DNA of 23,357 bases, from positions 1-23,357 of the IMG/VR virus record IMGVR_UViG_3300043467_000566. One strand, 5' to 3'. Under the pieces are notes generated by a model. The model was not told where the DNA came from. It did no database searches and saw only the letters and a list, made by a program, of their open reading frames with translations. Of this stretch, positions 6,701-21,393 are shown piece after piece (the stretch's first letter is position 1; the number at the start of each line of letters is the position of its first letter). Position numbers and translations under genes: made by a program. This DNA comes from a virus.

Positions 6701-9700
6701 TTATGGAAGAACAAAACTTTTGCGGAGTTAGGATTATCATCAGGAACAGGAACGACAAACTTTGTAACCAAGTGGTCAAACGCAACTGGAGGGTTAACCA
6801 ACTCGCAGATTTTTGACAATGGGGTTAATGTTGGGATTGGCACGCCAACACCTTTAGGATTATTAGAGTTGTACGGAACAGGCACACCAAGTGGTATGCT
6901 TAGAATAATAACTATTGGTGGAGGTGGATTTACTATTGGAGCTAAAGACAATACAGCAAACCCTATTTGGAGGATTGGTACTAATTCTGGAGAAAGTTTA
7001 GCTTTTGAAGTAGGAGGTGGCACATCGGGTTTGTTTTTGAATCCTTTTAACAACGTAGGGATAGGAACGGATAATCCGACCTATAAATTAGAAGTTGTGG
7101 TTGGAAGCACGGGGGCATTCTTTACAAGATTATCAGGTAATGTTGGAGTTACAGCACCTGCAATTGGTTTACAAACAGCAACAACAACAACAAGAATTAA
7201 CAGTTTTGGCGATGCATTGCAATTTTTTACGGGAGTAGTTGGTTCGACTACTACGCAAAAGATGACTATACTAGCGGATGGCAACGTAGGCATAGGCACA
7301 ACAACACCAGTATCTAACCTTACAATTAATGGGTCAACAGGATTATATTTAAGACACTCAAGTGGTGGCAAGATAATTTTTGATGACACTGACGTAGCCG
7401 ATGCATCAACACCTATGTCATGGATAGAGGGAGCTAATGGTGCAATTAACTTTTATAGAGCAAATAGAAACGCTACTACTGGATTAACTACTGGTTCTAC
7501 GCAATCAATGGTTATAAATGCAGGAGGTTCTGTCGGCATAGGTAGTACGGCTTTAACAGGTATAAGCCTTAGGAATGCGAAAATAGTTACAGGAGCAACA
7601 TCCGCTTATGGTTATTTACAAGACGGACAAATACAAAGTGATGTAACTACCTTTGCGTCTTTAATACAAAGCAATGTCTCGCAAGTCTCAGGTGTTACTA
7701 CGCCTAATGTATATGCCTTTATAGCCAATCAAGGGACAGTATCAGGCACAATAAGTAACCTTCATGGATATTTTGTTAATTCTAATTTAGTTGGAGGGGT
7801 AAATAATTACGGCTTTAGAGGATTGATACCTGCTGGAACTGGACGTTGGAACTTGTACATGGACGGTACAGCCCAAAACCATTTCAGAGGCAATGTAGGA
7901 ATAGGTGCAGGAAGTACAGTACCAACGACCGAATTAGATGTTTTGGGAATTACACGAACCACAAACCTAAGAATTACCAACGGTGCTGCGGTGGGTAAAG
8001 TTTGGCAGTGTAATAATGTTAATGGAACTGGTGAATGGGTCACTCCTTTGAGTTCTGAAAGGTACATTGGTGAATGGGCAGCAAATAGTGGTGTAGCACC
8101 AAGTGCAAGTCCTACAACAGGAGATTATTACGTGGTAAACACCGCAGGAACATATCTTGGGATTACTTACGCAGCAGGAGATGAAATATATTGGAATGGA
8201 ACGGCATGGCTAAAGAGGTCTAATTTCTTAACCTTACCAATAGCGACAGCTTCTGTTTTGGGTGGAATCAAAATAGGAACGGGATTAACAATAGATGGCA
8301 GTGGTGTTGTAAGTGTTGCAAGCTTGGCAACTGCGAGAACAATATCTGCAACGGGCGATGGTACTTGGTCGGTTAGTTTCAACGGAAGTGCTGATGTGTC
8401 AGGGGCTTTGACTTTGGCAAACGTAGCAACCGCAGGCACTTATAGGAGTGTTACAATCAACGCCAAAGGTTTAGTAACTGCAGGGACAAACCCGACAACA
8501 ATTTCAGAATATGGAATAACGGATTTTTATGCTCAAATAGTTAGTGGATTTGTTACAGGTGCAAATTCAACTGTATTAGATACAGATTCGTTGGAAGTTG
8601 CTTTGGAAAAGTTGCAAGGGCAAATAAATGCGAGAATTTCGGAGAATCAAACGATTACACTAAGTGGTATAGTAACAGGTTCGGGAACGACTGCAATAAC
8701 CACAGCAATAGCCGATGCAGCTTTAAGTATTGCTAAGACGTCAGGATTGCAAACCGCATTAGATAGTAAACAAGCCACATTAAGCGGAACAGGATTAGTA
8801 TTGTCAACTGCTGGAACAATAACTTATGTTACTAACAATTCAACGAATTGGAATACGGCATTTGCCGAAAGAAATAGATGGGATGGCGGGGCGACAGGAT
8901 TAGTTGCTGCGACAGGTAGAACTTCGCTTGGATTGGTAATAGGTACAGACGTTCAAGCTTATGATGCAGATTTGCAAGCCATTGGAGCATTAGCAGGAAC
9001 AAGTGGAATATTAAGAAAGACCGCAGCAAATACTTGGTCATTAGATACTAATACTTTTATCAATTCTGAAAACTTAATTGACTTTAGGGCTACCACAAGT
9101 CAACTTGGATTTGTTGCTATTGGTACAACAATGGAGGTTAACGGCTTTGGGGTTATAAACCAAAAGTCAGGAATAGTTACAACAGGAACTTATCGTAGTG
9201 TAACAGTTGATACTTATGGACGAATAACAGCAGGAACTAATCCGACAACTATATCAGGTTATGGCATAACGGATGCTTATACAAAAACAGAATCAGACGC
9301 AAGATTTGTGGCTTTGGCTGGAAGTTATGTAAACCCGACATGGATTGCATCATTAGCTTGGACAAAACTTACTGGAGTGCCGACAACGTTTGCACCATCA
9401 GCACATACGTTGGATAGCCACTCAAACGTAACGATTACAAGTAATTCAGCTGGGGAATTATTAAGATGGAACGGTACAGCATGGATTAATAGTACCTTAG
9501 CTGAATCAGGCATACAACCTTTAGATGCAGATTTAACATCAATAGCTGGTTTGACAGGTACAACTGGGTTACTTAGAAAGACCGCTGCCAATACTTTTGT
9601 TTTAGACACTGCGACATATTTAACAGGTATTACTTCTCTTCAAGTAACTACAGCATTAGGATTTACACCTTACAACGCAACCAATCCATCAGGATTTATA

Positions 9701-13604: not shown

Positions 13605-13868
13605 ATGAAAAAGTATAAGATAAATGACGATGTACGATTAATAGTTAATCAGTACATGGAATTGATGAAAAAAGGCGTTTCAATGAAACGTTTGGCTGAT
13701 GATACAGGTATAAGTTATCATTACTTCTACAAGATGCTGGTGGAGCAGTCGATGCCAGTGTTTAAAACTCAAAAAATGAAAGACAAGGCAAATGTGTTTT
13801 TGGCTCGGGAAGATGTAAAGGAAATTTTAAAAATGAATAATAAATTGTATGAAAGAAAAACTGATTGA
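13605..13868 (+). CDS. Small HTH-like regulatory protein
   Basis: From ATG 13605 this encodes 87 residues; an in-frame TTG at 13590 lies within the promoter box and is rejected. Residues about 24-45 ('GVSMKRLADDTGISYHYFYKML') have the spacing of a helix-turn-helix: a first helix with Leu-Ala, a Thr-Gly turn, and a recognition helix rich in Tyr/Lys. This suggests a DNA-binding regulator, such as a Cro-like or phage activator protein. It is the first gene after a terminator and a promoter, so it begins the early transcript. Its end overlaps the next ORF by 20 nt. The HTH is visible by pattern only. Confidence 0.65.
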   Translation: MKKYKINDDVRLIVNQYMELMKKGVSMKRLADDTGISYHYFYKMLVEQSMPVFKTQKMKDKANVFLAREDVKEILKMNNKLYERKTD

Positions 13869-14016: not shown

Positions 14017-14323
14017 AGAAGCCAAAAGGCTTATGTATTTAGCCCTTTTAAGCCAGTCGCTGATAGACGAAATTGATGATGGTATAGGATTGTTTAAGAT
14101 GAAGACAAAACAGCGAGCCAAAGCCTTGTTAGAAGACCTTATGATTTTAATGAATAAAGACCTTGGGAGTGAAGGAGCAGTTGACCAGCTTGTGAATCTT
14201 ACGGTATGGCATAAACAAATGTATAATATCTTGATTGCAACAGGCGAATTGTCAAGATTGGAACAGCAATGTTTTGAGCAAGATTGGAATGTTTTAATAA
14301 CTAAATACAAGTTGAAATCATGA
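14000..14323 (+). CDS. Hypothetical helical protein before the origin candidate
   Basis: The chosen start is ATG 14000 (107 residues); an in-frame TTG at 13991 would add three residues. The protein is helical and charged, with no TM segment, no Cys cluster and no recognised domain. The C-terminal half contains 'VWHKQMYNILIATGELSRLE'. It is the last gene before the 276-nt non-coding repeat region at 14324-14599, and its stop lies 8 nt upstream of the first GCAACACATT site. A role in replication or in control of the early operon is possible from position only. Confidence 0.65.
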   Translation: MKDRFEEAKRLMYLALLSQSLIDEIDDGIGLFKMKTKQRAKALLEDLMILMNKDLGSEGAVDQLVNLTVWHKQMYNILIATGELSRLEQQCFEQDWNVLITKYKLKS

Positions 14324-14330
14324 TGCAAAC

Positions 14331-14524
14331 GCAACACATTGAAAAAAAAAGTATCCGCCTATACTGCTTTAGCGGAAAAAATTAAAAAAATAAAAATTAC
14401 AAAAAAATGAGTTTCAATGTGTTGCAAGTGTTGCGGAGCTTATAACTTATTATAAATTAGATAGTTATAAACAACACTTTGCTTTTTTTAAGTGTTTTGG
14501 AAGTGTATCACGCAACACATTTGA
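14331..14524. repeat. Repeated GCAACACATT sites; origin or operator candidate
   Basis: The intergenic region 14324-14599 has no gene. GCAACACATT occurs at 14331-14340 (+), 14416-14425 (- as AATGTGTTGC) and 14512-14521 (+). The first two are extended to a perfect 14-bp inverted repeat (14331-14344 with 14412-14425). A further GTGTTGC lies at 14428-14434 and a variant ACAACAC at 14471-14477. A small hairpin (TCCGC/GCGGA with a bulge, 14354-14376) sits inside the inverted repeat, and the remainder up to 14599 is very A/T-rich, ending in a weak TACCT/AGGTA hairpin (14555-14568). The combination of spaced repeats and an AT-rich stretch directly upstream of the primase-helicase gene suggests an origin of replication, or operator sites for the primase operon. 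No consensus promoter is seen. Confidence 0.5.
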
Positions 14525-14599
14525 TTTTTTTTTAAGTAATTCTATTTTTTATTTTACCTAAAAAGGTATATTTTTATTTTTTAAAACTAAAATTTAACA

Positions 14600-16930
14600 A
14601 TGATTACTATTTTTAAAACACTTTACGGAAGTAAGGACGTGCCTTACCATGTAACCATGGAAAAGGTAATAGACCGAATAAAAAACGGATCCTCCGCTGC
14701 AACAATTCAAGCCATAGCAGATGCGGCAGATAAAGAGACAAAACAGAAGTTAAAACTTACTTTACCTTGCATTCTTTTTGCTGGCAATTTTTCAGAAAGA
14801 AATTCAAACTCCTTAATTAAGCATTCAGGGCTTTGTGTTCTTGACTTTGATGGAATACCATTGGATGAGATTAAATCATTTAAAGAAGTATTAAAACAGA
14901 ATGAGCATATTACATTAATCTTTAAAAGTCCCAGAGGTAATGGCTTAAAGGCTGTTATTAAAATACCAGAGGCAAATAAGGAAAGCCACAAAAAGTATTT
15001 TAAGGGGTTTGAAAATAAATTCAATTACGATTACTTCGATTCGGCTTGTTCAAACATTGATAGGGTATGTTTTGAATCCTATGATCCGGACTTGTATTAT
15101 AATCCAAATGCCAAGGTATTTGAATGTAATATTGAAAACGATGAAGGTTATCAAATGACAGAGAAAGTTCCTTTGCTCCCGATTGATAGCGAGGAAGAAA
15201 TAGTAAATCGTTTGATGAAGTGGTGGGATGCAAAATATGGTTTTGTTGCTGGCGAAAGAAATAAAAACATTTACGTTTTAGCTTGTGCTTTTTGTGAATA
15301 TGGAGTAAGCCAAGATTATGCTATTGGATATATTAACAACAATATTGTTATTGGAGACTTTCCAGAGAAAGAGGCTATAACGGCAATCCGGTCAGCATAC
15401 AAAAAGATGACTTTTGGAACTAAGTACTTTGAAAATGAGCAGAAGATTAATAAAATCAAAAGTTCGTTTAAGGACTTAAAAAAAAATGAAATAATTAACA
15501 AGTTTGGCATTGATGATTCAACCTATACTGAAATTAAAGAAGAAGTGGATCATGATTTCTTTTGGTATTATACCGAAGAGAAAAAGCCAAAATTAAAAAT
15601 AGATTCTTTGCTGTTTAAGAATTTTTTAGAAAGGCATGGCTATAAAAAGTTTTTCCCGCATGAATCAAATAATCCGACTTTGGTCTTTATTGAGTCAAAT
15701 AAGGTCGAGGAGACATCATCGGACAAGATTAAGGACTTTGTATTAGAATATCTTTTAAGTAAGCGAGAAAACGAAGTTTGGAACTATTGCAGTACTTCCT
15801 CCAAATTGTTTTCGGACGATTACCTAACTATGTTAAGCACCATTGAATTAATGATGCTCAAGGATGAAAAGGACAAATCTTACATAGCATTTAGAAATGG
15901 CATATTAGAAGTAACAGCAGACAAAATAGAACTAAAAGATTACATTGATATTGAAGGTTATATCTGGAAGAACCAAATTATAAATAGAGAGTTTAAAAGG
16001 ACATTAAATTATGAGAATGATTACAAAAGCTTTATAAACAATATTTGTAAGGATAAATCAATAGAATCTGTAATAGGGTATCTACTTAGCACTTATAAAG
16101 ACAATACCAATAACAAGGCTATAATATTAAATGATGAAGTAATAAGCGAAAACCCAGAGGGTGGCACCGGCAAAGGTTTATTTATTCAGGGAATTAAACA
16201 GATCCGAAAGGTTGCTATCTTGGATGGTAAAACTTTTGACGACAAGAAGTCTTTTCCATACCAAACAGTTCAGCAAGACACCCAAATACTTGTTTTTGAT
16301 GACGTAGTAAAGAATTTTAACTTTGAATCCAAGTTTAGTCTTGTTACTGAAGGCATGACATTGGAGCGAAAGAATAAAGATGCAATCAAGTTAACAGTGA
16401 AGGAAAGCCCGAAAATGGTTATCAGCACCAACTATGCAATAAAAGGCGAAGGGAACAGCCATGACAGAAGAAGGTTTGAAATAGAATTTGCCCAGCACTA
16501 CGGAAAGAAAAACACTCCTTTTGATGAGTTTAAGAGACAAATCTTTGACGACTGGACAGTCAATGATTTTACGCATTTCGATAATTACATGGTCTTTTGC
16601 TTGCAATCGTATTTAAGAGATGGATTAATGCAACAGGATGCCAAAAACATCAAGTTAAGGAAATTTATCGCAGAAACTTCAATGGAGTTTTACGAATGGA
16701 TCAATGACAGCGAAAACTTCAGGAGCAATACACGAAACAATAAGGGCAAAGCTTATGAAGCATTTGTGAACGAATATATTGACTACAAAAAACTATCAAG
16801 AAAGAGGTTTCATATTTGGGTTGAGAAGTATTCAAATTACAAAGGATTTATATTTTCGGAAGGAAATACACAGGGCGAAAGGTGGTTTATGGTTACAGAC
16901 GTTAATACATTGGAAGATGCACCATTTTAA
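14600..16930 (+). CDS. Primase-helicase: BT4734-like AEP domain plus SF3 helicase
   Basis: This 776-residue replication protein probably makes primers and unwinds the phage origin. Residues 1 to about 170 resemble the BT4734-like/VirE N-terminal domain common in Bacteroidota: LDFDG gives acidic residues D82 and D84, followed by 'FKSPRGNGLK' (about 108-117) and 'NIDRVCFESYDPDLYY' (about 152-167). A middle helical region (about 200-280) resembles a primase C-terminal linker. The C-terminal SF3 helicase shows a Walker A 'EGGTGKG' (K525), a Walker B 'ILVFDDV' (D567, D568), a sensor 'VISTN' (about 606-610) and an arginine-rich 'DRRRFEIEF' (about 621-629). The residue after the Walker A lysine is Gly rather than Ser/Thr. 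The start follows an A-rich leader. The stop overlaps the next gene by 14 nt. Confidence 0.85.
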   Translation: MITIFKTLYGSKDVPYHVTMEKVIDRIKNGSSAATIQAIADAADKETKQKLKLTLPCILFAGNFSERNSNSLIKHSGLCVLDFDGIPLDEIKSFKEVLKQNEHITLIFKSPRGNGLKAVIKIPEANKESHKKYFKGFENKFNYDYFDSACSNIDRVCFESYDPDLYYNPNAKVFECNIENDEGYQMTEKVPLLPIDSEEEIVNRLMKWWDAKYGFVAGERNKNIYVLACAFCEYGVSQDYAIGYINNNIVIGDFPEKEAITAIRSAYKKMTFGTKYFENEQKINKIKSSFKDLKKNEIINKFGIDDSTYTEIKEEVDHDFFWYYTEEKKPKLKIDSLLFKNFLERHGYKKFFPHESNNPTLVFIESNKVEETSSDKIKDFVLEYLLSKRENEVWNYCSTSSKLFSDDYLTMLSTIELMMLKDEKDKSYIAFRNGILEVTADKIELKDYIDIEGYIWKNQIINREFKRTLNYENDYKSFINNICKDKSIESVIGYLLSTYKDNTNNKAIILNDEVISENPEGGTGKGLFIQGIKQIRKVAILDGKTFDDKKSFPYQTVQQDTQILVFDDVVKNFNFESKFSLVTEGMTLERKNKDAIKLTVKESPKMVISTNYAIKGEGNSHDRRRFEIEFAQHYGKKNTPFDEFKRQIFDDWTVNDFTHFDNYMVFCLQSYLRDGLMQQDAKNIKLRKFIAETSMEFYEWINDSENFRSNTRNNKGKAYEAFVNEYIDYKKLSRKRFHIWVEKYSNYKGFIFSEGNTQGERWFMVTDVNTLEDAPF

Positions 16931-19114: not shown

Positions 19115-19225
19115 ATGGATAAAGCAACACGAAATAATTTAATTCAATTTGGAATTGGGTTAATTATAACGCTTACTTTAATCGGTGCGTTAACAGGTAT
19201 TATTTTAAAATTTTTAAACAATTAA
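19115..19225 (+). CDS. 36-residue single-TM microprotein
   Basis: ATG 19115 to TAA 19223-19225 encodes 36 residues: MDKATRNNLIQFGIGL, then one hydrophobic helix (about residues 11-32, rich in Ile, Leu, Thr and Gly), and a short Lys/Asn tail. It is the only ORF that begins directly after the -7 box at 19104-19111, which supports it as a real gene with a leaderless start. It is followed 5 nt later by the next gene. Its function is unknown; many phage microproteins of this type modify or occupy the inner membrane. Confidence 0.55.
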   Translation: MDKATRNNLIQFGIGLIITLTLIGALTGIILKFLNN

Positions 19226-21239: not shown

Positions 21240-21393
21240 GGTCAGGTGGCGGAATGGTTTGGCGTTGGGATAAAAACTGAGGCCTGAGACATTGGTAGAC
21301 GCACACAGTATTAATAAACAAAGAAGTGATTTATATAGGCGTAAATATAAAGAAACAGCTATATAAATACAGGTTCAAATCCTGTCCTGACCG
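21240..21393 (+). ncRNA. tRNA-like structure 2 (class II/Leu-like, expanded D loop and variable arm)
   Basis: Acceptor GGTCAGG (21240-21246) pairs perfectly with CCTGACC (21386-21392), with G21393 in the discriminator position. The T arm ACAGG-TTCAAAT-CCTGT (21369-21385) is fully canonical. The D arm halves 'GGCGGAA' and 'TGGTAGACGC' are those of tRNA-Leu but are separated by about 36 extra nt. The variable-arm position carries a 10-bp perfect stem, ATTTATATAG/CTATATAAAT, with a 20-nt loop (21329-21368). The stretch where the anticodon arm belongs (about 21303-21328) cannot form a 5-bp stem. It shares the 17-mer ATGGTCAGGTGGCGGAA with structure 1. No encoded CCA. Confidence 0.52.

Follow-up and report, generated by a model that had tools for sequence, protein, structure and literature searches.

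The window analysed here is the whole of a virus record of 23,357 bases. In it, an open reading frame ends at 14323 and the gene for a primase-helicase starts at 14600, and the segment between them is non-coding. The window holds only three exact copies of the 10-mer GCAACACATT, all within 191 bp of this non-coding DNA, and two of the copies lie in the arms of a 14-bp inverted repeat (14331-14344 and 14412-14425) that is 100% complementary, with 67 nt between the arms. The features of the locus are the following:

14331 to 14344, plus strand: iteron 1 and left arm of the 14-bp perfect inverted repeat, GCAACACATT(GAAA), with the exact 10-mer at 14331-14340.
14345 to 14411, no strand: AT-rich core of 67 nt between the inverted iterons, a candidate melting region.
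14358 to 14372, plus strand: inner box CCTATACTGCTTTAG, placed by a by-eye alignment of the window sequence, the family modules and the close relatives.
14412 to 14425, minus strand: iteron 2 and right arm, inverted, TTTCAATGTGTTGC, with the 10-mer at 14416-14425.
14426 to 14434, minus strand: degenerate tandem iteron GCAACACTT, head-to-tail with iteron 2.
14471 to 14480, plus strand: degenerate iteron ACAACACTTT, with two mismatches and weak on its own.
14512 to 14521, plus strand: third exact iteron GCAACACATT.
14522 to 14599, no strand: run of almost only A and T, reaching the start codon of the primase gene.
14600 to 16930, plus strand: primase-helicase, the proposed initiator, with a BT4734-like N-terminus, PriCT_1, a helicase core and a putative C-terminal winged helix.
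16697 to 16897, plus strand: putative C-terminal winged-helix region (codons about 700-766), assigned from secondary structure and from co-variation with iteron class.

A preliminary description of this DNA had reported three copies of the 10-mer in non-coding DNA ahead of the primase gene, and the count is far above expectation (mean of 0.08 and maximum of 1 in 100 dinucleotide shuffles). The perfect inverted repeat, the shorter variants (14426-14434 and 14471-14480) and the A/T-rich run that it had listed are also present. When up to two mismatches were allowed, the motif was not enriched window-wide (38 matches vs 35 expected), so the claim of enrichment rests on the exact and near-exact sites. 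The 7-mer GCAACAC occurs 7 times in the window vs 2.4 expected, with 4 occurrences in the cluster. The preliminary description had singled out distant copies of this 7-mer; those at 19124 and 21393 are real, but with the one at 8313 they are at background level and carry no significance. As a separate observation, Rfam matched window positions 21240-21393 to a tRNA at 32.5 bits; the match extends over 154 bases that include additional internal sequence, and ARAGORN makes no call there.

Folded as single-stranded DNA, the 95-nt element had a z-score of -4.9, and none of 200 shuffles folded equally well. The inner box CCTATACTGCTTTAG appears to be a degenerate version of the family box CTATATACC/CCTATACCCCCTTAG, and its position reads CTATATAC in the close relatives L006-L008 and L010. 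The core of the window lacks the G tract present in most relatives. Beyond the third iteron, the A/T stretch at 14522-14599 is a possible second melting region, promoter or both; a search for a sigma-70-type promoter within it found none.

The repeats are conserved among other phages. The near-identical relatives (L004-L010) keep the sites; both inner 10-mers are invariant in seven close relatives, and the third site at 14512 is kept in six of the seven, the exception (L008) reading GCAACAGGTT. In two more distant phages (L011/L012), whose primase-helicase is 60% identical, this 10-mer is again present as two inverted copies, amid neighbouring sequence that is unrelated. Counting beyond the window, a check for which the preliminary description had named copies scattered through coding genes as adverse evidence, placed 28 of 29 exact GCAACACATT copies in the cluster, in 10 related virus records, with one stray copy in G010.

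We also scanned IMG/VR for GCAACACATT-N55-85-AATGTGTTGC, that is, for opposed 10-mers at 55-85 bases, and 24 stretches matched. Half of the matches were discarded, being inside coding genes of two unrelated families. The non-coding matches all adjoin this primase-helicase, including those in L011/L012 (60%), L113/L114 (55%) and L099 (40%). Inverted repeats around a core are also known at sites of recombination, integration or packaging, and the locus could be read as one of these. We regard that reading as very improbable, given that every non-coding match adjoins a primase-helicase, that no integrase or terminase lies beside the module in the list of open reading frames, and that third and tandem copies misfit a simple crossover site.

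The 10-mer module lies at the same place amid different surrounding genes in relatives with a primase-helicase 40-61% identical, and the primase-helicase is the only gene common to all lineages with the 10-mer. The helix-turn-helix (HTH) protein at 13605 and the open reading frames at 13849 and 14000 occur in the near-identical phages only. In L113, an XRE-like HTH fragment, unrelated to the HTH protein of the window, lies directly upstream of the module (upstream of 4395). Outside the near-identical group, the closest relative (L119, 70%, from a Flavobacterium MAG) has the iteron GCAACACTTT in a tandem arrangement (AAAGTGTTGCAAGTGTTGC) that is the same as at 14416-14434 of the window, and AGTACACATT-type relatives share the tandem arrangement as well. 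The L119 iteron also serves as evidence for reading the degenerate ACAACACTTT at 14471-14480 as an iteron.

Across the wider family, whose records are mostly metagenomic fragments, we found a common layout upstream of the primase gene: an iteron, a core, an inverted iteron that is often present twice in tandem, and further copies beyond. The core is about 55-95 bases in length and holds a (C)CTATA(TA)CC box, often with a C tract and a G tract. The two arms change together across relatives. The layout is kept, and the words used as iterons vary among lineages: GCAACACATT, AGTACACATT, AGTGCGAAGTT, AGAACGAAGTT, AGTCAACATT, ACGCAACGATAA and AAACGGATT, with CGTGACGAT further off. Using thresholds chosen after viewing part of the data, we detected the outer inverted repeat upstream of the primase gene in 21 of 41 non-redundant relatives (shuffle mean 0.7), and the repeat together with an inner TATACC or C/G tract in 18 of 41 (0.1 in shuffles). 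Because of that choice of thresholds, we used as a held-out test a second set of 40 relatives, fetched later and 41-56% identical. In this set the inverted repeat was present upstream in 13 of 40, vs 1.45 in shuffles, and in 2 of 40 in the 700 bases downstream of the gene; the repeat with the inner box was found in 5 of 40, vs 0 in shuffles. At the strict thresholds the module is missing from about half of the first set and from more of the distant set, and several distant members seen by eye to have iteron pairs and a CTCTTATATACC box were missed by the strict rule. Automatic calls that resemble chance pairs (e.g. L120, L123, L127, L013 and L069) were not counted.

The position of the module relative to the gene also varies. 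Six relatives have it flipped (L053, L068, L071, L084, L085 and L087). In L053 and L066 it is found hundreds of bases ahead of the gene, separated from it by other sequence, and in some relatives an open reading frame intervenes. The flipped and displaced modules argue that the module functions as DNA and not as an mRNA leader. An explanation at the level of RNA was rejected, as there was no Rfam match in the region and the flipped modules speak against it.

Separately, we observed a recurrent candidate RNA, consisting of a TAnnTTTG promoter box followed within about 10-20 nt by an H-type pseudoknot whose second stem resembles an intrinsic terminator. It precedes the primase gene in about 18 divergent phages and other genes in some (L022:3914-3984, L052:1201-1275, L067:3896-3972, L077:1928-2005, L088:928-1007, L094:3889-3960 and others; also L043:7036-7101, L047:8180-8245 and L168:1465-1543). 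The stems differ in sequence and keep their pairing, and a few weaker matches occur in shuffles too. The candidate RNA is absent from the window, and the loci tested gave no Rfam match.

Repeats directly upstream of a gene could instead be operators, through which a repressor, or the primase itself, controls transcription of the replication operon, with replication starting elsewhere. Iteron-based autoregulation is common in plasmids, a TAnnTTTG promoter lies between module and gene in relatives, and the third iteron (14512) might share bases with a promoter element. Operators, however, would have no need for opposed sites to enclose an AT-rich core whose length stays similar, and would not be expected to be flipped or displaced as the module is in several relatives. 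Further, no repressor is common to the lineages with the same 10-mer, and the domain that co-varies with the iterons (see below) belongs to the helicase. We consider the operator explanation unlikely.

We then considered the protein encoded beside the module. The primase-helicase has Pfam matches to BT4734_N and PriCT_1 and belongs to PHROG 28855/18375. A search of solved structures by sequence with the primase profile gave no match, and matches came from the fold search alone: the AlphaFold2 model (mean pLDDT 83) matched AsfvPrimPol, SaPI5 Rep (7OLA) and poxvirus E5 in Foldseek. At its C-terminus the model has helices at 715-725 and 734-748 and strands at 751-757 and 760-766, and we read this helix-helix-strand-strand unit at 715-766 as a winged helix. 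Both this label and the SF3 label for the helicase rest on fold, without a Pfam match.

The putative winged helix tracks the iteron word. With iteron classes assigned by eye, a sliding-window comparison, corrected for overall identity, placed the strongest link to class at residues 691-760 (0 of 2000 label permutations). Among pairs of proteins 80-90% identical elsewhere, winged-helix identity was 83% for a shared iteron (n = 22) and 62% for different iterons (n = 8); L052 and L033, for example, are 82% identical elsewhere and 58% in the winged helix. Column mutual information favours the winged helix only marginally (p = 0.076): iteron class and clade overlap, and this measure could not tell their effects apart. 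The putative recognition helix reads LKRN in GAAGTT-type proteins, VKTF in GCAACGATAA-type proteins, and LTNKK or LSQKK in AGTACACATT-type proteins. In GCAACACATT-type proteins it is mostly LTRK or LSRK, the exceptions being L094 and L099, which have Q where most have R. Since the winged helix diverges as the iteron changes, the primase-helicase most likely reads the repeats, probably through its C-terminal winged helix. This co-variation is good support for iteron recognition, but not proof.

A different protein could recognise the same origin, namely a host initiator, the HTH protein at 13605 or a helicase at about 16779. The preliminary description had put forward the HTH protein as a binder, which its absence from other lineages with the same 10-mer argues against, limited as it is to the near-identical phages. 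Most loci encode a relative of the helicase at 16779, but none was found in the L113/L114 loci, which carry the same 10-mer. For a host initiator, there is a DnaA-box-like TTATAAACA at 14465; against it, matches to the DnaA box (TTATNCACA with one mismatch) were below chance window-wide (27 vs 37 expected), with one near the module and no cluster, and host proteins would not account for iteron words that differ among phages. Recognition by any of these proteins seems to us improbable, slightly more so than the operator explanation.

Taken together, we conclude that a phage replication origin very probably occupies 14331-14521 and the A/T run that continues to 14599, and that the winged helix of the primase-helicase probably binds its iterons. 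The preliminary description had suggested a phage origin, and the comparison among phages strengthens that suggestion: the module recurs before divergent primase-helicases, and the winged helix tracks the repeat sequence. In the mechanism we propose, the primase-helicase, an AEP primase fused to an SF3-like helicase, would bind the GCAACACATT iterons via its C-terminal winged helix. The opposed iterons flanking the AT-rich core would then allow two helicase rings to assemble head to head and to melt the core, where the AEP domain would lay the first primers, with phage or host enzymes extending them. We infer the steps of this scheme: that the protein binds directly, that the core melts, that a double ring is loaded, that priming occurs within the core, and which way replication proceeds. 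The GC-skew check suggested by the preliminary description was informative neither way: skew has the same sign on both sides of the site (0.21 to the left, 0.175 to the right), and it gives the origin reading no support because it follows gene direction. Likewise, in a complete circular relative with 42% primase identity (MW202828.1; L206/L207), GC skew switches at ~43.9 kb along with gene direction, and not at the primase gene.

A broader possibility, which we put forward tentatively and hold at somewhat less than even, is that the module represents a distinct class of origin in a large group of Bacteroidota phages. Such an origin would consist of opposed lineage-specific iterons, a core of near-fixed length, a TATATACC box and paired C/G tracts; the primase-helicase would read the iterons via its winged helix and use the inner tracts for melting or for the start of primers, and iteron words and winged helices would change together in the manner of incompatibility groups. 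We found no description of the module in a literature search limited to open-licence papers. The origins of most uncultured phages are unknown; if the proposal is true, both the origin and the protein that recognises it could be read from sequence for hundreds of Bacteroidota phages. The natural pairs of iteron word and winged helix would also provide a test set for origin choice by a primase-helicase initiator, and the conserved inner box points to one particular place where melting or priming may occur.

Several features of the module recall known replication systems. In the SaPI and SCCmec elements, the proteins Rep and Cch2, respectively, use a C-terminal domain to bind iterons that adjoin their own genes (PMC7581432). 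The likeness lies in a self-loading helicase, here a proposed one, and in a repeat cluster found beside the initiator gene and nowhere else, and Rep of SaPI5 is, like the protein of the window, a primase-helicase fusion, one that matched the primase model in Foldseek (7OLA). Their origins, however, are downstream of the gene, whereas the module is upstream, and its opposed sites enclose about 55-95 nt of core sequence with a TATACC box and, frequently, C/G tracts; the primase domain here is of the BT4734 type, and the phages are those of Bacteroidota.

The origin of pRN1 is an inverted repeat of ~100 bp, with a 21-nt stem and a 58-nt loop; replication requires this repeat, and the repeat and the replication operon together suffice for it. 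The repeat is movable, and its shape is conserved while its sequence conservation is very low (PMC4234260). The same authors proposed this type of origin for phage BIP-1. The pRN1 protein (ORF904) also combines an AEP primase, an SF3 helicase and a C-terminal winged helix, and the inverted repeat here is of similar size (95 bp) with shape conserved above sequence. Unlike pRN1, which has no iterons, the arms here are shorter (14 bp) and are repeated as extra copies at 14426, 14471 and 14512.

Two phage systems offer further parallels. In phage P4, a single protein, alpha, has primase and helicase parts along with a winged helix for binding the origin repeats (PMC4234260); its primase, however, is of the Toprim type, and the likeness is one of protein plan. 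The NrS-1 primase-polymerase is likewise a phage-encoded primase of the AEP superfamily, one whose start site is sequence-specific (PMC8718748), but its recognition site TTTGGTTA is found in the window a single time, fewer than expected by chance, at 955 and far from the module. By analogy, the module probably works both like the iteron origins of SaPI and SCCmec and like the inverted-repeat origin of pRN1. It would thereby join two schemes that have been described apart, the iteron origins (SaPI, P4) and the pRN1 inverted-repeat origin, and combine the features of both.
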